A DNA stretch of 64,000 bases from Collybiopsis luxurians FD-317 M1 (lineage: Eukaryota > Basidiomycota > Agaricomycetes > Agaricales > Omphalotaceae): contig KN834806.1 of assembly GCA_000827265.1 (NCBI GenBank), positions 189,770-253,769 of the forward strand. The letters are read 5' to 3'. A program made the position numbers and the translations under genes. Numbering within the stretch: position 1 is the first letter of the stretch; every line of letters starts with the position of its first letter. The notes beneath the pieces were generated by a model. That model did not search any database and was not told the DNA's origin. It saw only the letters and a list, made by a program, of their open reading frames with translations. Shown piece by piece: positions 1 to 49,634 of this stretch.

Positions 1-1473
1 ATGCACGGCTGTTGCTACATCATGGCCACGGTTATCCTTTGTGGGTTCCAGAGCCCAATGAGGCTTTGCCGCAAGAGTATCTAACCGAAGGTGTTGGTGT
101 CGGGGACGTAGGCATTGTCACCGCGGGAGGCTCTTTTGACTTTTTATTCAATGTTTTTAAACCTGCCGAGCACCTTATCAACCGGTGTCAACCAGGTGGT
201 CTTCCAGAAGGATTTGTTCCCCTGCCATGGGATCCACGATTTCTACAAGTTAATTCCCATCAACATCGCTCGGGTGTTCCAATATCGAGCCGAGGAACAC
301 AATCAATCGAGTTTGAAGTTGGAGCTTCAGCACCAATCCCGTTTGTTTTTCCGATTCCTATTGAATTAATGTCAGTTATAACCAACCTACAATCCTTTGT
401 CAGAGGCGCTCCTTCAAAGATCGAAGGCGGTATAGAGCTAAAGTTCAGCGATTCCCGAGGAGCGATGTTGATGCTTCCCAATGGTGCATCAGAGTAGATT
501 ATGGCAATCTCAAAATTTTGCGAGAATTTGCAGCTCTCAACGCGGAAAGTTGGTATCACTTTGTGAATAGCGAAAACGTTGGTCGCGAGGCAGAGAATGG
601 ATCTTTGTATCTCATCACTGGATGCGACAAGACAAGCTCCTGGGAGGTGGCTGCGTATTCAGCTCCATCCCATGGACAAACTCTTTCAATCAAGTTCATC
701 TCACCCTTAGCTGACGGAAAGCTCTGTATGACTCGATCGTCTATGTTCCAGAGTTTTCTTTCAAGCAGGATATCGAATGGGTCCAACACAAATAACCAAG
801 CGGTATTTGTTCGTGGCTTCAAGATAAGCCTTCAACCTACTCGTTGGAAAAGGCTCTTTGGCACCGTTAAAAACACAGCCAAAATCACACCCATTGTAGC
901 AGGAAAAGCGCCAAAGAATGCTATGTCTAGAGGTGGTGTATTCAGCCCCGAGCAGAGCGAGATTAGTTTGGTACGAGGGGGTCAAGTGTCCGCAGGCGCT
1001 CGGGAAGACATAGAAACTTTTGATGCCGAAACCCCTCCGTTTAATGATAACGACACCAGCAGCGATGGCGCTAGCCCACGTTCCGCTGATTCAGAAGAAG
1101 AAGTGGTGAACGTCCAGGTGCGTCATTGCTACTTCATGGACATCTCAAGAGACTGATTCAATACAGACATATCACCCCTCAAAAATTGTCAACGATTATA
1201 TTCTCAATTTGGTAGATTTTTGAGTCATCTTGCGTTTCTCAGTCTGGGTTTTGATTTCCAACTTTGTCTCAGTCGGACGGGGCGGTGGCTATCTGTCACG
1301 ACAGAGAATGGTGCTCCATATTGACGGAGGTGTGTCAAGTCTTGCGGTATGCATATCCAATAGAGCCAAAGACTAAAGCGGGATTGCTTTGTAGTACGAC
1401 CAAGAAATTCCCAATAACGAAGAGCTGATTAGCAGAATTGAATAGAATTATTCCATTGATATCAGTGACTCAG
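1..1473 (+). pseudogene. Broken N-terminal module of a TEA-fused paralogue (5' end outside window)
   Basis: This is a decayed copy of the first half of the gene at 3556-6786, aligned exon for exon: about 3-340, 404-1117, 1167-1211, 1273-1329 and 1395-1473. The first nine residues lie left of the window. It keeps the module signature (HHGHGYPLWVPEPNEALPQE, then IVTAGGSFDFLFNVF, then LITGCDKTSSWEVAAYS). There are two lesions relative to the intact copy. A 1-bp deletion near 492 brings a TAG into frame at 495-497, and the original frame resumes as the open stretch 518-1117. An in-frame TAG lies at 1443-1445 in the fifth exon. Downstream exons (from 1537) remain fully open and encode a TEA protein, so only the N-terminal half looks dead. 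The module has no function known to me. A sequencing error could explain the deletion, but not both lesions easily. Confidence 0.75.
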
Positions 1474-1652
1474 GTACCGAAATTTCGTTACTTCGTACTT
1501 AAAACCTTCAGTAACTGACCTAATCGTCTCTACCAGGTTGTGCATTTCTAGCGTCTCGACAATCAGAGCCGCCTGACCACTGGGATACGGTTCGATCCGT
1601 TTCGGACCCACTGACATCAACCCCAGTGAGACAGGCTAGCTCCTCTAGTACT

Positions 1653-2987
1653 ATGGAATATCCCACCTCTTTATGGGTGGACAGCGACTATTCCAGATGT
1701 TCGACTTCCTCCACACTCGTGGAATACCCACCGACTTCCGACGTTATCGCTGCAGATAGTAAAGTCTCGGGAACAGAAGACGTCTTCCGGGCCGTAGTCA
1801 AATGTCGGAAAAGCTGGAAGACCCTCAAAGGGGGAAAAGTCGTATGGCCGCTTCATCTAGAAGCTGCATTACTCGAAGGTGATCTTCACATCGACTATCA
1901 CCATTTTTAAACTCAGTTGCATAGGCCTTGCTCTTTACAAGCCCGATAGCTCTCGAGAAGCGTTACTGCTTGGTCGGTAAGTATTAAAGGACACTAGGTC
2001 CTCTGGTACTATTCTTAAACCTAAATTATCAAGGTTTCCCATGCGTAATAGGTTCATCTCGGAGTACATTTTTAAGACGACTGGGGAGCTACGGACCGCA
2101 AAACAGGTCGGAAGTCGTTTACAACAACTAAGAGATACTGTAGGAGGCGGGAAAAAATGTACGCGTGTACGTTTGCGAGTGTAACCGTGGTGCTGATTTC
2201 GATATAGTACAAAAGCTGCTTTCTCCTTCTGCGGATTTCAGCTCCACCTCATCCAATCGCTCACATTCTTCTGGTTCCTCCGCAGGAGAGAATGTATGGA
2301 AGTCAATGCCTTCATCGCCCACCGTGATATACATCGACATTGTTGCTGAGGACTGCACTCCCTCTTTGCAACAAGAATATTCAACCAAAACCAGCCCTTT
2401 CGACGCCACTATAAGTTCATTACACGGTCCTCGATCCATCAGAATGATCAGACCATGTCTGGCATTCACATCGCCCGTGGGCTCGCCCATCATTGCACGT
2501 TCATGCTTCACTATTTGTCATGGTGATGTGGTCTATGAGGACTCATCTCCCTTGACCGTCACTTCTGCAACTGCACCAGAAGGAACTTCGGTGTATACAT
2601 GTGATTTGGCCCCCCATTATTGGAAGATGATCTGCAACAGTCCCGGTAGGTGCTTGACGAAGTTTAAGCTATATCTCTTCCTAACTTCTTCTAGACCCCA
2701 CGCAGTTCACGATCCACCATAATATCGTGCGGGAGTCTTCGTCAGCTCAGCTATTTTCTGCAACATATAGATTCCGATATGTTCTAAGAAGATTCTCCTC
2801 CCCACCACCTACTTTCTCTCCCATAGACGTAGATTCCACTGTCGAAAAGCATCAAACCGCAAATTTTCGGGGAGGTAGTCCTCAGTCCAGTCCTGGGATT
2901 CTTTCGGAGATCTCTTCCACCATCTACGATTCCGAAGACTGGCACGACCAATTTGATAGTCTTTCGATCGCGTCTCGCTGTCAATAA
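1653..2987 (+). CDS. TEA/ATTS-domain transcription factor
   Basis: Sequence-specific nuclear DNA-binding protein of the TEA/ATTS class (TEAD, TEC1, AbaA). Exons are 1537-1878, 1925-1976, 2034-2158, 2208-2645 and 2695-2987; all junctions are GT-AG and keep frame. The TEA domain is split by two introns: RKSWKTLKGGKVVWP, then LYKPDSSREALLLGR, then FPMRNRFISEYIF followed by QVGSRLQQLRDT, with the basidiomycete-like LQKLLSP right after. The C-terminal part is Ser/Thr-rich and shows no domain I recognise. The exon that opens with TEA-upstream sequence begins with residues homologous to the neighbouring paralogue, so the ancestral gene was a fusion with the module at 1-1473. Because that module is broken, I place the start at the in-frame ATG 1653, which gives 377 residues. 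The alternative is a single longer pseudogene. The start is therefore uncertain, but the TEA identification is not. Confidence 0.8.
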
Positions 2988-3555
2988 GGCTGTCAATGTA
3001 GAAGTAGAGTGGATATCCATACCAGACTTGATCATTTATAATAAATCTCTGTCCACCCAACGTTCGCTTTAATATAGAGATATCATACATTATGGCGCTG
3101 ATCGGGCGCTCAGGATGGCTCTCCAGCTTTTAGACTCGTTCCTAGCCTGGTCTAATGAAATTCTATCGATGATCAGGCTGGGGGATTTTGCAGTTTATCC
3201 GTGGTACACAATCCGGAGATCTTTGATGCTCAATTGGCGTTGCATTTGAGATTTACTTTGGGCAAGTATCTGAGCGACGTTACGTTTACATAGCCTTCTT
3301 AAAATCAACTGACTAGTATCTATAACGACTTGGCCTGATGGTATTTACGCTTGACCTCAGGTATCTAATCTAAATGCATGATTTGTGGGCGTCCTTCACA
3401 TTTTCACAGCTTTTAATGAATTCCGCGTTTGAACATGATCTATAAAGATAAGTACACGTTTCCTGAATTCGCCTAGGTTTTCCCTTTTTCCGAAGTCGTG
3501 TATCACTGTGAAATCACTTATAAAGCTAATCTGATGGCCACTTGACCTCAGCAAA
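2988..3555. other. Intergenic, 3' end of TEA gene and promoter of next gene
   Basis: 568 bp with no coding signal. It must hold the TEA terminator and the promoter of the tandem paralogue, but I see no clear TATA box. Confidence 0.5.
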
Positions 3556-6500
3556 ATGTCTTCGAACGCAAGTGAGACGTATGCACGCCTGCTGCTACAT
3601 CACGGCCACGGTTATCCTTTGTGGGTTCCGGAGCCCAATGAGGCCTTGCCACAAGAATATCTCTCCGAAGGCGTGGGCATTGGAGACGTAGGCATTGTCA
3701 CCGCTGGAGGCTCTTTCGACTTTCTGTTCAATGTGTTTAAGTCCCCTTTACATCCAATCAACCAATGCCTATCTGGCGGTCTTCCTAACGGATTTGTTCC
3801 CCTTCCCTGGGACTCACGATCCCTCCAGGTCAATTCTCATCAACATCGTCTAGGCGTTCCTATCTCAAGCCGGGGAACGCAATTGATTGAACTAGATATG
3901 GCAGTTTCTGCGCCTGTCCCGTCAGTTCTATCTGTTCCTAACCATATTGAGTGCTATACTAACTAAGTTGTTTTACTTTTAGTGGCACTCCTGTGGCTAT
4001 TGGAGGCGGTATTGAGCTGCGATTCAGTGAATCTCGAGGAGCAGTGTTGATGCTTCCCAATGGTGCCTCAAGGGTAGATTATAGTAATCTCAAGATCTTG
4101 AGGGAATACGCAGCTCTCAATGCAGAAAATTGGTATCGTTTCGTGAATGGCAGGAACATAGGTCGTGAGGCCGAAAATGGGTCTTTGTATCTCATCACTG
4201 GATGCGACAAGACAAGTCCATGGGAGGTAGCTGCGTATTCAGCTCCATCCCATGGACAAACTATTTCGATCAAGTTCACCTCACCCTTAGCCGATGGAAA
4301 ACTATGTATGACACGCTCGTCCACGTTTCAAAGTTTTCTTTCGAGCAGGATTTCAAATGACTCCAGTACAAATAACCAAGCGGTATTTATTCGGGGCTTC
4401 AAGATAAGCCTTCAACCTGGTCGGTGGAGAATGCTTTTTGGCTCGGTCAAAAACACAGTAAAAATCACGCCCATCATGGCCGGAAGGCTTCCAAAGAATG
4501 TCATGTCCAGGGGTGGTGTATTCAGCTCAGAGCAAAACGAGATGAGTTTGGTACGTGGTGGTCAAGCATCCGCAGAACCTCGGGAAGGCATAGGAGCTTT
4601 TGACGCTGGGACACCTCCGAGTCCATCCAGTGACGGCGACACACCCAGCGACAGCGCAATCTCCAGTTCTGTTGACTCGGAAGAACCAGTAAACGTACAG
4701 GTGTGTCATTTCCCCCTTTCTCGACATGTAAGAAATTGATTGTTGCAGATATATCACCCTTCAGAAATTATCAACGATTATATGCTCAATATGGTAGGAT
4801 ATCCGAGTACAACTACCGCAATTCTCATTTTAATTTACATCCTTTTTTTTTATCTCAGTCGAATGCAGCAGTGGCCGTCTGTCACGACAAAGAATGGTGC
4901 TCCATCTTGAACGAGGTGCGTCGAGTCTCTAACAAGGTATAAATGCCTCAAAGTCAAAGGGAACTGCTTTTCCAGTACGACCAGGAAATTCCTAACAACG
5001 AGGAACTCATTAGAAGAATTCAACAAAAGTATGAGATTGGCACCAGCGACTCAGGTATACGGTCATTCAGTGCTTACTATTAGGTATTGAGCAACTCTAG
5101 GTTATGCGTTTCTAACATTACGGTCATCGGAACAGTTTGGTCAAGTTCATCCTGTTTCAGACTCACACGAATTAAACACCATCGCAATGCTACCTTTGAG
5201 AAAAAGTCCTCCTGCAGATCGACCAGGAACTATGAGGAAATCGCGCAAACAGGGTGGGAGAGGAGAGAACAGCGATAGTATGGCCGACAGTTCCAAAGTT
5301 ACCACTGAAAGATTGTGAGATCCTATCCTCGTTTGAATTGATCCTTTTTAGATGATTGATTAGCTCAGGAGTCTGCTTTCACTGCAATAAATTAAAGGTC
5401 TTTGTTCGATACGCTTGAGTTTTGCCTGTCTCTTGACATGAATCACGGTTTACAGATACAATGCGAGTTTCCCCCCGACTTTGAAAAATGCAGACGATGT
5501 ACCACGGTAGGACTTCCTTGCGTAATCGAGGGAGAGAGATTAGGTGCAGGTTTAAAGTACGTTATCATAATACCTCCTTCTATTTTTCTCACCCGTTGGT
5601 ACATTCTGCCTTCAGCAAAAGCGAGACTTCAATTGAGCCGACCAAACAACGGCAGACTGCGGAAGAACAGGCTCGTCATTCTCAGGTTATTGTTGCAATA
5701 TTCCTAACTTGATTCCTCCCCGCAATTATAAAGGAAGCCATTTATCAGGGTTTTTCAGCATCTGCCCCTCTGTTGCCAATTTCTCCAGTGTTACCTCTGC
5801 CCGGCAGCTCGCAATTGTTGTGGAACATCTCTTCACTCTCTGATAATCACCCTGTTACCGATACTGAGATCCTCTCACCCGCTCCTGGTAATGAACAAGC
5901 CGGGGAGAGACCAGATTCAGCTCGTAGCTTGGATATGGAAGTTGACTCAGATACAGGCGGGAAACTGGAAGAGACAGGTTCAGTTGGGGACAGCAGTGAC
6001 ACCGAAGGGGACTCTGAATCTAATGATATTACTCCGACTCACTTCAAGCATGGTGGTTCTCCTGAGCTTGTTCGGGCTGGAGGGCCGAGGGGAAATCTCA
6101 CCGCGGCGGTTTTGCTCTCACAACCTCAGAATGCAACGGAAAGAGAGCCCCAGGAGCTATTTTCACAGGGACATGATCACCCCACGTCGTCACAGCCTTC
6201 ACAGATCCTTTTTGAATCAGAAGACTCGATTCAACAACGCCCACTTTCTGATGCATCGTCCAAAGTGCAGCAAGAACATGAAATGTTCCCAAAAATTGCA
6301 AAGTCAAATATGTCGACAGTTTCACGCTCAAGTTTGCTGAGTCAGTTGATGAGACAAGGAGTGAATACATCTGCAAACGAGCGTGCTGGAGAGGACCAAT
6401 CGTACATGGAGAGAGGTTCAGTCGCTAGGACAGAGCTTGAACCAGTCGGTAGCGTTCCACGCTCTGTTACGGCCGCAACTCCACTGCCTCTGAGGTTTCC

Positions 6501-6786
6501 TTACAACATCCCTCCTACTGCTCCTTCTTCTCCTCGTACGACTCGGCAAGAGATGCTTCGAACAGAGATCTCAGAAACGCTGCGCCGAAACCTTCTTTGG
6601 TCACGGCAGGTTTATAGACGAGAATTCTCTGGGCCGGAAAGGAGAAGGGCTAGTGGATCGAGTTCGACCGTGTCGCAACCGCTGGAGAGTACTGTTCCGT
6701 CTACGATTCAGGTGGAGGAGAGTCAGATGGACAATCGGCATGGAAGTGGGGAATCTGCGGAAGAGGATGATAGGTTACATGCGTGA
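3556..6786 (+). CDS. Zn(II)2Cys6 zinc-cluster protein with Agaricomycete N-terminal module
   Basis: Predicted 911-residue nuclear protein in ten exons: 3556-3920, 3983-4700, 4749-4793, 4859-4915, 4976-5054, 5101-5314, 5364-5397, 5456-5556, 5616-5685 and 5734-6786. Residues 1 to about 430 form the same module as the broken copy at 1-1473 (GHGYPLWVPEPNEALPQEYL; GSLYLITGCDKTSPWEVAAY), of unknown role. A zinc cluster near residues 496-525, spread over two exons, has all six cysteines in canonical spacing, C-X2-C-X6-C-X8-C-X2-C-X6-C, preceded by a basic stretch (MRKSRKQGGRG). The C-terminal third is acidic and disordered and ends with a conserved-looking helix (ISETLRRNLLW) that I recall from fungal regulator C termini such as DUF3295 proteins; that match is from memory. 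The start is the first ATG in the homologous frame. It sits in tandem with its TEA-bearing paralogue. DNA binding is inferred from the cluster alone. Confidence 0.85.
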
Positions 6787-48167: not shown

Positions 48168-49634
48168 TCAACCAGGATAGTTCCAACATCCCCAGGGAGC
48201 AGGCGGATAATTGAAACAACTAGCAACCATTGGGACACAGTAAGAGCTTATCCAGTGCATTGGGTACATTATTACCGGTTGAACGTAATGATAATAAACT
48301 GGGATGAAGGTAGTAATTGACCATCGAGATCGACGTTTTGGGCGAGGGAAAGTGGTTCGGGAAATGGGAGGAGAGTCGGAGAAATGCGGTGTGGAAGAAG
48401 GATGATTCATGAAAAGATTGGAAGAAGTGTGAGATTCTGATGAAGCAGCCTTATTAGGGAGATTATCATTGGAGAATATGCACTGATTGAAGATCATCGT
48501 CGTATTTGATTCATCATTGTAGGTGCTGGAGCTCATATTTCCGCCAATCGCATTAAAATGACCACCGTTAATGCTGAAATTCTCACTTGAATTAAACAAA
48601 TGCGGTGGATCCCTAAAGGGTATGTCATAAAGCCATTGCGCGAAGGTGCGAGGAAAACTCACTTGATCGGTAGATCTTCGGGGGAAGAATTTTGGGAACG
48701 TTCTAAAACTTCTGCATCGACAGACTTAGAAAGCCGCCGTCGTCGGGGAATTTCTATGTCGGCTGTCGTTGAACTCAAAGAAGAAGATGAAGAGTCTTCT
48801 ACTTGGGTTGCCACGATCTCATCGCAGACAGCGCTACTTTCAATTTTAGCTGTTGAATGACTACAGCGTACCTGTAATTGGATCAAAGTCAAAGTAAAGG
48901 GTGAGTGAGAACTTACTGAGTTTCATCCGGAGGATCCGGCATAATGTTGCTTAAATCCTTGGCCATTCGCTTCTTATTCCTCGCCTTCCTATCCTTATCC
49001 CGTACACGTTGAAGCCGATAGACATACCCTGGGTACTTCAATGCGTGCTCCTCCTTCTTTTCCTTCGCCAAATCTTCCCAATACTTCCGCTCCTTAGGCG
49101 TCAGCGACTTCCATTGCTGACTGATCGTCTTGGACAGATCAGCCTGTCGCTGCTTCTTCGTCATACCAACAGCTGCGGCTTCCTCTGCCGCCTGACGCTC
49201 CTCGCAGAGCTTGCGTCGAAAGAGAATGAAAGCATTCTCCGGTCGCTTGATATAGTCCAGAAGAGAGTAGGACGTTTTCCATATGGGTGAAGGTAATACA
49301 GATGTGAGAGATGAAGTTAGAAAAAGGGTTCGCATTAGAGGTGATGTTGTACATGATGATGAAGAAGAAATAGCGAGTGAATTGAGTTCAGGCTCGAACG
49401 GGGAATTAGGTGGCGTAAAGCAGGGACTGTCGGACAAGTCGAGGTTATGCGTGATAGGGAAAGTGAAGGCGCGTGGCGTGGGGGAGACGATCGTCAAAGC
49501 TGGAAGCCGGGGCGCGTCCGTCGTCACTTCGAGTGCTAGATAGAGGTAAGTATCAAAGTTAGAATACACTATCTCCGTCGATCTGATGACAACTCACGTC
49601 GGGGTTGGGTATCGCCCGTGCGGAGTACGGGCAT
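48168..49634 (-). CDS. HMG-box protein with NLR-like GG motif
   Basis: Four exons, 49634-49598, 49535-48917, 48860-48663 and 48612-48168, give 432 residues. An HMG-box DNA-binding domain lies at about 106-190: YIKRPENAFILFRRK, an extended loop, then QRQADLSKTISQQWKSLTPK and RKYWEDLAKEKKEEH, followed by the basic YPGYVYRLQRVRDK. It resembles the MAT/Ste11-type boxes of mushrooms with a longer first loop. From residue about 290 the third splice joins to LFNSSENFSINGGHFNAIGG, the pattern found at the N terminus of the NLR gene at 20734-25325. The C-terminal 80 residues are aromatic and Cys/Pro-rich (for example PVYYHYVQPVIMYPMHWISS). The 3' exons are joined by frame-preserving GT-AG introns; the acceptor at 48861 was chosen because only it keeps the frame. 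Confidence 0.8.

Follow-up and report, generated by a model that had tools for sequence, protein, structure and literature searches.

Plant NLR-ID proteins hold pieces of host regulators, integrated as decoys in an NLR scaffold. Gasdermins are pore proteins that act in cell death. The known fungal gasdermins (fGSDMs), of the RCD-1 and HET-Q1 type, are reported mainly in Ascomycota and are often encoded beside protease genes, and their control is described as proteolysis or allelic pairing (PMC10989679, PMC12881547). A protease gene within 10 kb is reported for about 80% of fGSDM genes. Models of nonself recognition in basidiomycetes are said to derive from ascomycetes (PMC8229728).

The window, the whole stretch of 64,000 nucleotides that was analysed, comes from the saprotrophic mushroom Collybiopsis luxurians FD-317 M1 and carries two tandem copies of a protein module. 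Sequence comparison places them in a family of mushroom genes, mainly of Agaricales, in which a module of about 430 amino acids is followed by a disordered linker and interchangeable C-terminal parts. Such a module-output family, combining a gasdermin-like fold with shuffled outputs, is rather probable. The features of the two copies are as follows.

1..1473, + strand: module copy 1, five exons, decayed (DNA alignment to copy 2, open reading frames, codon comparison, upstream DNA)
1537..1650, + strand: 5' part of copy 1 exon 6, with the last module strand (CAFLASRQSE...) and a linker, up to the TEA methionine (protein likeness to the start of 5101-5314, by eye)
1651..2987, + strand: TEA-domain gene with its own ATG at 1651 (Pfam TEA; six-frame match at C58:191780-191908; paralogue alignment)
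about 1836-2150, + strand: TEA/ATTS domain (Pfam TEA, 86.3 bits, cut-off 25.1)
3556..5054, + strand: module copy 2, intact, exons 3556-3920, 3983-4700, 4749-4793, 4859-4915 and 4976-5054 (spliced model; 100% identical to public model P0021; AlphaFold2)
5101..5314, + strand: copy 2 exon 6, with the module's last strand and then a disordered linker to the zinc cluster
5315..5363, + strand: the decisive intron of copy 2 (spliced model against P0021)
5364..5556, + strand: Zn2Cys6 cluster, exons 5364-5397 and 5456-5556 (Pfam Zn_clus, 25.4 bits, cut-off 21)
5734..6786, + strand: last exon of copy 2 (spliced model, Pfam DUF3295)
about 6220-6612, + strand: DUF3295 match in the last exon of copy 2 (Pfam, 33.7 bits, cut-off 25.8)

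Positions 1-1476 and 3581-5057 are 76% identical in DNA (1135 of 1497 alignment columns), which bears out the two tandem copies noticed in a preliminary description of this DNA. The DNA alignment stops three bases beyond the exon-5 splice site that follows the DSG codon. At the protein level likeness runs, by eye, slightly beyond this junction into exon 6 of both copies (CAFLASRQSEPPDHWDTVRSVSDP against YAFLTLRSSEQFGQVHPVSDS), in keeping with the earlier view that homology passes the shared DSG codon. A codon comparison of the two modules gives a dN/dS of 0.13, and by this measure the module of copy 1 was constrained until recently.

Copy 1 has its start codon 25 bases upstream of the window edge. 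In the DNA alignment it is one base shorter than copy 2 between 491 and 492, so that TAG 495-497 falls in frame; a second in-frame TAG lies at 1443-1445, ahead of the junction. No open reading frame from the module to the TEA domain was found in this copy because of these two lesions. The TEA gene itself resembles a paralogue on contig C52 (L003) from 'SSxxMEYP' onward, that is, from the methionine at 1651, and the module search listed no module match on that contig. The ATG at 1651 is thus, as the alignment reads, a start common to a module-free relative. The proposed passage of the first gene from module to TEA domain is not borne out. Both lesions, together with the separate methionine of the TEA gene, led to the dismissal of copy 1 as a working fusion. 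Copy 1 behaves in effect as would be expected if the module were a separate gene everywhere and its outputs neighbouring genes with their own 5' coding frames, the apparent fusions being merged gene models.

For copy 2 a 10-exon model with GT-AG introns (3556-6786) is open for 911 amino acids and joins module, zinc cluster and DUF3295; a tail paralogous to its last exon lies at C7:1109271-1109600 (51%). When the intron at 5315-5363 is spliced, the module continues in one open frame into the zinc cluster, and when it is retained the frame stops at TGA 5316-5318. The public model GYMLUDRAFT_62553 (P0021, 493 amino acids) ends at this TGA, as the separate-gene explanation would have it, and a second public model (P0043, 283 amino acids) starts at ATG 5935. 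Both public models found omit the zinc cluster and thereby separate the two ends; the search for public models had a length limit that a third model under about 245 amino acids would escape. Public annotation was not accepted as final for copy 2, the zinc-cluster exons being in neither model found. The claimed passage of the second copy into a Zn(II)2Cys6 cluster stands as a frame that is open if this intron is spliced, at variance with the public models. The exon that bears the linker also carries the last strand of the module (AFLTLR, predicted strand 423-428), which speaks against a separate module gene. Different DNA-binding domains do follow the two copies according to Pfam, TEA after copy 1 and Zn2Cys6 after copy 2, but copy 1 is without an intact fusion. 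Judged by their reading frames, both belong to a shuffling family, copy 1 as a broken member and copy 2 as an open one.

The genome holds 42 module loci, and the DNA behind 25 of them was read. Behind eight of the 25 copies comes a DNA-binding domain (TEA, four Zn2Cys6, tandem HMG boxes, bZIP-like and bHLH); behind five there is NACHT, CNH, a kinase or an SH3-like domain, and behind the other 12 no recognised domain. Besides window copy 2, Zn2Cys6 clusters lie behind the module at C7:136k, C18:476k and C182, the last borderline at 22.5 bits with exons joined by eye. The tandem HMG boxes are found at C7:418k, the bHLH at C18:390k, and the bZIP, a sub-threshold match, at C7:318k. These copies outside the window support the suggestion that one module is recombined with unrelated DNA-binding domains. 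Since further copies run into protein kinases, NACHT, CNH or an SH3-like domain, the exchange of DNA-binding domains is part of a wider shuffling of outputs; the idea is supported as a general scheme but too narrow. Pieces of C32, C74:76k, C3, C36:294k, C42, C35 and the shared C99 tail gave nothing above the Pfam cut-off, and the remaining stretches of the output-less copies were assessed by visual inspection and by tblastn using the known outputs. A literature search, with subscription papers mostly outside it, found no description of the module, of a TEA/zinc-cluster swap or of a gasdermin-DNA-binding fusion.

The loci at C7:136k and C18:476k are open module-zinc-cluster frames. The public model at the former (P0022) stops ahead of the cluster, and the model of the latter relies on two weak (AAG) acceptors. 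The open-frame test covered 14 of the 25 copies, its anchors being listed open stretches of at least 45 codons, so that short-tailed copies could not enter; for two of the 14, chance could produce an open stretch of that size (fractions 0.095 and 0.158). Between the module and some outputs there are about 1-2 kb and several introns, as with neighbouring genes, and merging of gene models may account for some of the fusions in other fungi (RNase III, Gti1/Pac2). However, C18:476k has no methionine between module and zinc cluster, an SH3-like tail is kept in four genera, and at C7:418k a breakpoint marks an in-frame capture. That the module is everywhere a separate gene is therefore improbable.

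At C7:418k the module is followed, in frame, by a duplicate of the 3' end of the stand-alone HMG gene on C5, with 96% identity between the two HMG sequences. The open fusion frame requires that intron 5 be retained or that a poor donor be used: splicing at the homologous GT-AG pair shifts the frame, and it is by reading through intron 5 that the frame stays open. A normal splice for this frame is thus unsupported. The 2-base shortening beside the exon-6 start of this locus, the lesions in window copy 1, a 1-base frameshift in the C7:318k module and the local expansion on C99 (10 of the 42 loci) are what would be expected if segmental duplication dropped a fast-duplicating module beside other genes, leaving most fusions as non-functional debris. 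Such a relic is nonetheless unlikely, given the dN/dS of the window pair, the four or more copies whose frames are intact (P0001 among them) and the non-random downstream neighbours of the module copies. In sequence terms, the common module, the variety of downstream domains, the open fusion frames of several copies, one recent in-frame capture and the lesions of some copies are all shown, and the interpretation preferred here is a family of module-output fusions.

The module matches no Pfam family at cut-off, and its earlier description as a sensor or partner module gives way to a predicted gasdermin-like fold. The predicted architecture has three elements: a domain resembling gasdermins, a serine-rich loop that is disordered, and a small alpha-beta cap. 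In the AlphaFold2 model of copy 2 (P0021) pLDDT is mostly above 90 over residues 1-275 and 363-430, with disorder at about 279-360 (loop) and 437-493 (tail). AlphaFold models of two members have gasdermins, including Neurospora RCD-1, as top match, and gasdermins come first in four structure comparisons of these two predicted models, with moderate scores and low TM-scores (0.15-0.22 by query in two Foldseek top fives); the two models rest on nearly identical alignments. The second model has no Foldseek match at E<=1e-3, and in VIA its two top rows show an rmsd of about 13. By VIA's own note the typical best Z for unmatched models is 7-8. Families missing from the fold lists were given no evidential weight. 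A profile of the module aligns with two bacterial gasdermins in the same register at E 1.8-2.2, non-significant by itself. A search of the genome with PF04598 gave no match at E<=1, and no gasdermin was among the Pfam matches of 20 members. PADLOC and NCBIfam scans of 39 members had no gasdermin among the best 25 of 47 and 25 of 46 families, those listed being kinase and other output or weak matches, and PADLOC on single proteins returned 0 families in 10 of 10. A proven gasdermin match was dismissed on the moderate scores and the common alignment; a gasdermin-like fold is predicted by modelling.

The disordered loop and tail of P0021 are compatible, and no more than compatible, with autoinhibition released by cleavage. 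As potential cleavage sites in the model they would also suit signal-gated regulators of transcription or signalling, whose module would detect a ligand or the state of a membrane and govern the DNA-binding or kinase domain joined to it. An example would be a transcription factor kept at the membrane until its serine-rich loop is cleaved. This is the preliminary view with a gasdermin-like sensor. The constraint on the window modules fits such regulators, and many outputs are ordinary regulator domains by Pfam with intact signatures (Zn2Cys6, HLH, HMG, Pkinase), yet the outputs are too diverse for a single regulatory logic (NACHT, CNH, SH3-like, kinases) and several members are decaying. Signal-gated regulators are the main alternative to the executor described next, possible but tentative.

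The module of these output fusions would, as preferred here, be a membrane-acting executor of the cell-death type, restrained within the full-length protein. New family members can come about through in-frame duplication of part of a regulator gene downstream of a module copy, and these then diverge or decay. The C-terminal parts have relatives among the regulators of the fungus itself (DNA-binding domains, kinases, NACHT, CNH, SH3-like), and the captured regulator would serve as bait or docking part whose disturbance by binding, modification or cleavage frees the module. By analogy with the integrated decoys of plant NLRs, an executor freed by a disturbed bait regulator is quite conceivable, if short of likely. 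The full proposal, a mushroom gasdermin-like family on captured transcription factors and kinases in which interference with a regulator, whether from a virus, a mobile element, a rival nucleus or a parasite, leads to membrane-acting cell death, is more speculative and somewhat doubtful. A large mushroom family with a gasdermin-like domain attached to kinases, NACHT and diverse DNA-binding domains would extend the fungal gasdermin system to basidiomycetes, account for a class of unannotated proteins and supply candidate genes for basidiomycete nonself recognition. The C5 HMG gene and its C7 capture would form a test pair for regulator recruitment into putative cell-death proteins.

Compared with fGSDMs, the module family is mainly from Agaricales, has an extra predicted alpha-beta cap and long C-terminal regulator fusions, and is without a significant sequence match to them. 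A search for the S8 subtilase motif in the 64-kb window and 22 further stretches, mostly of a few kb, gave one chance match beside a stop codon; locus L058 on C19 entered the analysis in this search alone. With fungal NLRs that have variable N-terminal effectors the family shares a modular architecture related to cell death: one module copy leads to NPHP3_N/NACHT, and Moniliophthora P0007 has a sub-threshold MLKL_N match plus a kinase. Most members, however, read without NACHT, and filing the module as an NLR was dismissed, NACHT lying behind just one of the 25 copies read and behind neither window copy. The module is not recognisable in the available text of a 2022 survey of fungal NLR N-termini (PMC9815663). 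By Pfam score the outputs belong to the same families as stand-alone TEA, Zn2Cys6, HMG-box and bHLH regulators; unlike these, they carry or follow an N-terminal module outside all Pfam models. As in plant NLR-ID proteins, regulator pieces (TEA, HMG, zinc cluster, kinase) appear beside or captured behind what would be a defence-type scaffold, whereas the scaffold here is not an NLR and a decoy role is proposed by analogy. If true, the family would be a fungal counterpart of integrated-decoy immunity, based on gasdermins rather than NLRs.

The DNA behind 25 copies of the module, a conserved N-terminal domain of about 430 amino acids predicted to be gasdermin-like, was read in 20 fetched regions (three with two copies each) and in the window. 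The genome of Collybiopsis luxurians FD-317 M1 (Omphalotaceae, Agaricales; 64.26 Mb in 200 contigs, the window being C58:189770-253769) contains 84 module matches, which group into 42 loci; contig C99 alone has 10 of these loci. DNA-binding outputs, that is, C-terminal parts of regulator type, follow 8 of the 25 copies read, other recognised outputs follow 5, and nothing recognised follows 12.

Outputs behind module copies (contig:position in kb; scores in bits)
Window copy 1: TEA
Window copy 2: Zn2Cys6
C7:136k: Zn2Cys6, 17.0, under the cut-off of 21, canonical spacing judged by eye
C7:418k: two HMG boxes, 55.0 and 51.3
C7:318k: bZIP-like, 23.2, under the cut-off of 27.6
C18:476k: Zn2Cys6, 43.5
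C182: Zn2Cys6, 22.5 (cut-off 21), exons joined by eye
C18:390k: bHLH, 42.1; also a separate six-frame match, 29.1
C28: NPHP3_N/NACHT, 88.2
C74:40k: CNH, 80.9
C72:196k: protein kinase, 197.5
C36:214k: kinase
C18:697k: small domain, SH3-like by eye, without Pfam match
C32: F-box-like, 13.2, under the cut-off of 24.3 and counted as unrecognised

The copies without a recognised output are C42, C35, C32, C36:294k, C74:76k, C3:1469k and six on C99, three of which have in common a long tail without a Pfam match, opening with a last module strand of the same type (GVTFAFF). The ten C99 loci lie within about 94 kb (31771-125787), nine on the minus strand and several closely paired. The module of C7:318k carries a 1-base frameshift, and in the surrounding stretch (C7:317000-324000) the bZIP-like segment is present twice in the same frame, at 3163-3303 and 3532-3663, the second 75% identical. 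Downstream of the module in C36:213300-220500 is a tandem pair of kinase domains, with a third kinase match immediately upstream (C36:212693-213172). Elsewhere in the window, apart from the module copies, an HMG-box match (40 bits) is found at 49024-49251 on the minus strand (C58:238793-239020).

Placement of the DNA-binding outputs behind modules is non-random, since TEA, HLH, Zn or HMG six-frame matches occur on the same strand within 4 kb downstream in 3 of 111 cases against 0.145 expected (P 5e-4), and direct reading found 8 such outputs in 22 stretches (P 7e-11 assuming 400 such genes in the genome, 1e-8 assuming 800), the domain types having been pooled post hoc, once they were known. 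In P0021, the public model of the copy 2 module, residues 423-428 form the last strand of the module, and the exon that encodes them, exon 6, also encodes the linker. The frame past this strand is open for 71 to 370 codons in 14 anchored copies, against medians of 9 to 21 in the other two frames, in a test that is anchored on listed open stretches of at least 45 codons, so favours long tails, and that covers 14 of the 25 copies. In 12 of the 14 the opening is beyond chance; for window copy 2 (fraction 0.095) and C74:76k (0.158) it is within the reach of chance. The spliced frame of C18:476k, modelled with two weak acceptors (AAG), is open for 788 amino acids with no Met from the module exon to the canonical Zn2Cys6 cluster, and that of C7:136k (658 amino acids) is open through its zinc cluster. 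Module and SH3-like tail form single public models in Collybiopsis, Tetrapyrgos, Stygiomarasmius and Moniliophthora. Public models on C. luxurians contigs are P0001 (C18), P0021 (C58), and P0022 and P0023 (C7).

The HMG output of C7:418k has a twin gene in the stretch C5:511100-513100, and the module search of the genome's contigs lists no match on C5. Identity is 96% across 1242 bp, introns and 3' flank included, up to the end of the 2-kb C5 stretch fetched. In the C5 gene the homology begins inside the long N-terminal coding exon; at the joint between HMG part and module linker the reading frame is kept. Judged from this alignment, C7:418k is a capture, a piece of a regulator gene apparently duplicated in frame behind a module. 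Against this reading, exon 6 of this copy has 2 bases fewer than that of C7:318k, so that normal splicing of intron 5 shifts the frame, and an open frame requires retention of intron 5 or use of a weak donor.

The two window copies share 76% DNA identity across 1497 columns, the alignment stopping at the exon-5 splice site. Copy 2 has an open model of 10 exons and 911 amino acids, in which splicing of intron 5315-5363 runs the module into the zinc cluster. Copy 1 lacks one base between 491 and 492 and has an in-frame TAG at 1443-1445; sequencing error at both sites is an unlikely explanation. A piecewise comparison of 405 codon pairs gave dN 0.115, dS 0.907 and dN/dS 0.13 with one stop, which indicates that the copies were constrained over most of their history and that copy 1 was broken recently. 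Before it came to sit behind a module, the TEA gene that follows copy 1 was probably independent, since its similarity to the C52 TEA gene starts at its own Met (1651) and C52 has no listed match in the module search of the contigs. Copy 2 ends in a tail of apparently composite origin: its DUF3295 part resembles C7:1109k (51%) and its zinc cluster those on C9, C17 and C19 (42-50%). The two public models found for copy 2 split it in two, both without the zinc cluster; a short third model would fall below the length limit used. With the zinc-cluster half as query, the single match among 7996 candidates scored under a length limit was copy 2's own public model.

Two protein searches yielded 42 module proteins, including some of C. 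luxurians itself, from sources among which Collybiopsis, Tetrapyrgos, Stygiomarasmius, Moniliophthora, Dendrothele, Marasmius, Paramarasmius, Cyathus, Mycena, Tricholoma, Plicaturopsis and Chiua are named. Twenty were scanned singly against Pfam: 11 have no domain at or above cut-off, and 9 do, namely kinase (4, one with an additional sub-threshold MLKL_N match), DUF6699 (2), RNase III with dsrm (1), Gti1/Pac2 (1) and GTPase (1, just reaching the cut-off). The module is followed by RNase III and dsrm in P0009 (Moniliophthora) and by Gti1/Pac2 in P0013 (Paramarasmius, cdc4 in the record); some of these fusions in other fungi, these two among them, may be merged gene models. P0018 and P0020 have extra N-terminal stretches upstream of the module (GGNITYFNF, HGGEIVSAGRDIHIN), which we take to be similar to short motifs that NLRs and kinases of agaricomycetes carry.

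Two modes of action may be considered. The module might gate a working transcription or signalling domain, for which the intact DNA-binding signatures speak; we regard this as possible if rather doubtful, as the outputs are mixed, one being a partial copy of a host gene, and birth and death of members are visible. These same features favour, tentatively, a module acting as a membrane executor that the full-length protein would restrain, the captured regulator perhaps serving as bait or docking part. No description of module fusions was found in the literature searched; the available sections of PMC9815663, on fungal NLR N-termini, and of PMC12881547 and PMC10989679, on mainly ascomycete gasdermins, do not mention them. 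The parts are of known kinds, and it is their combination that looks new.
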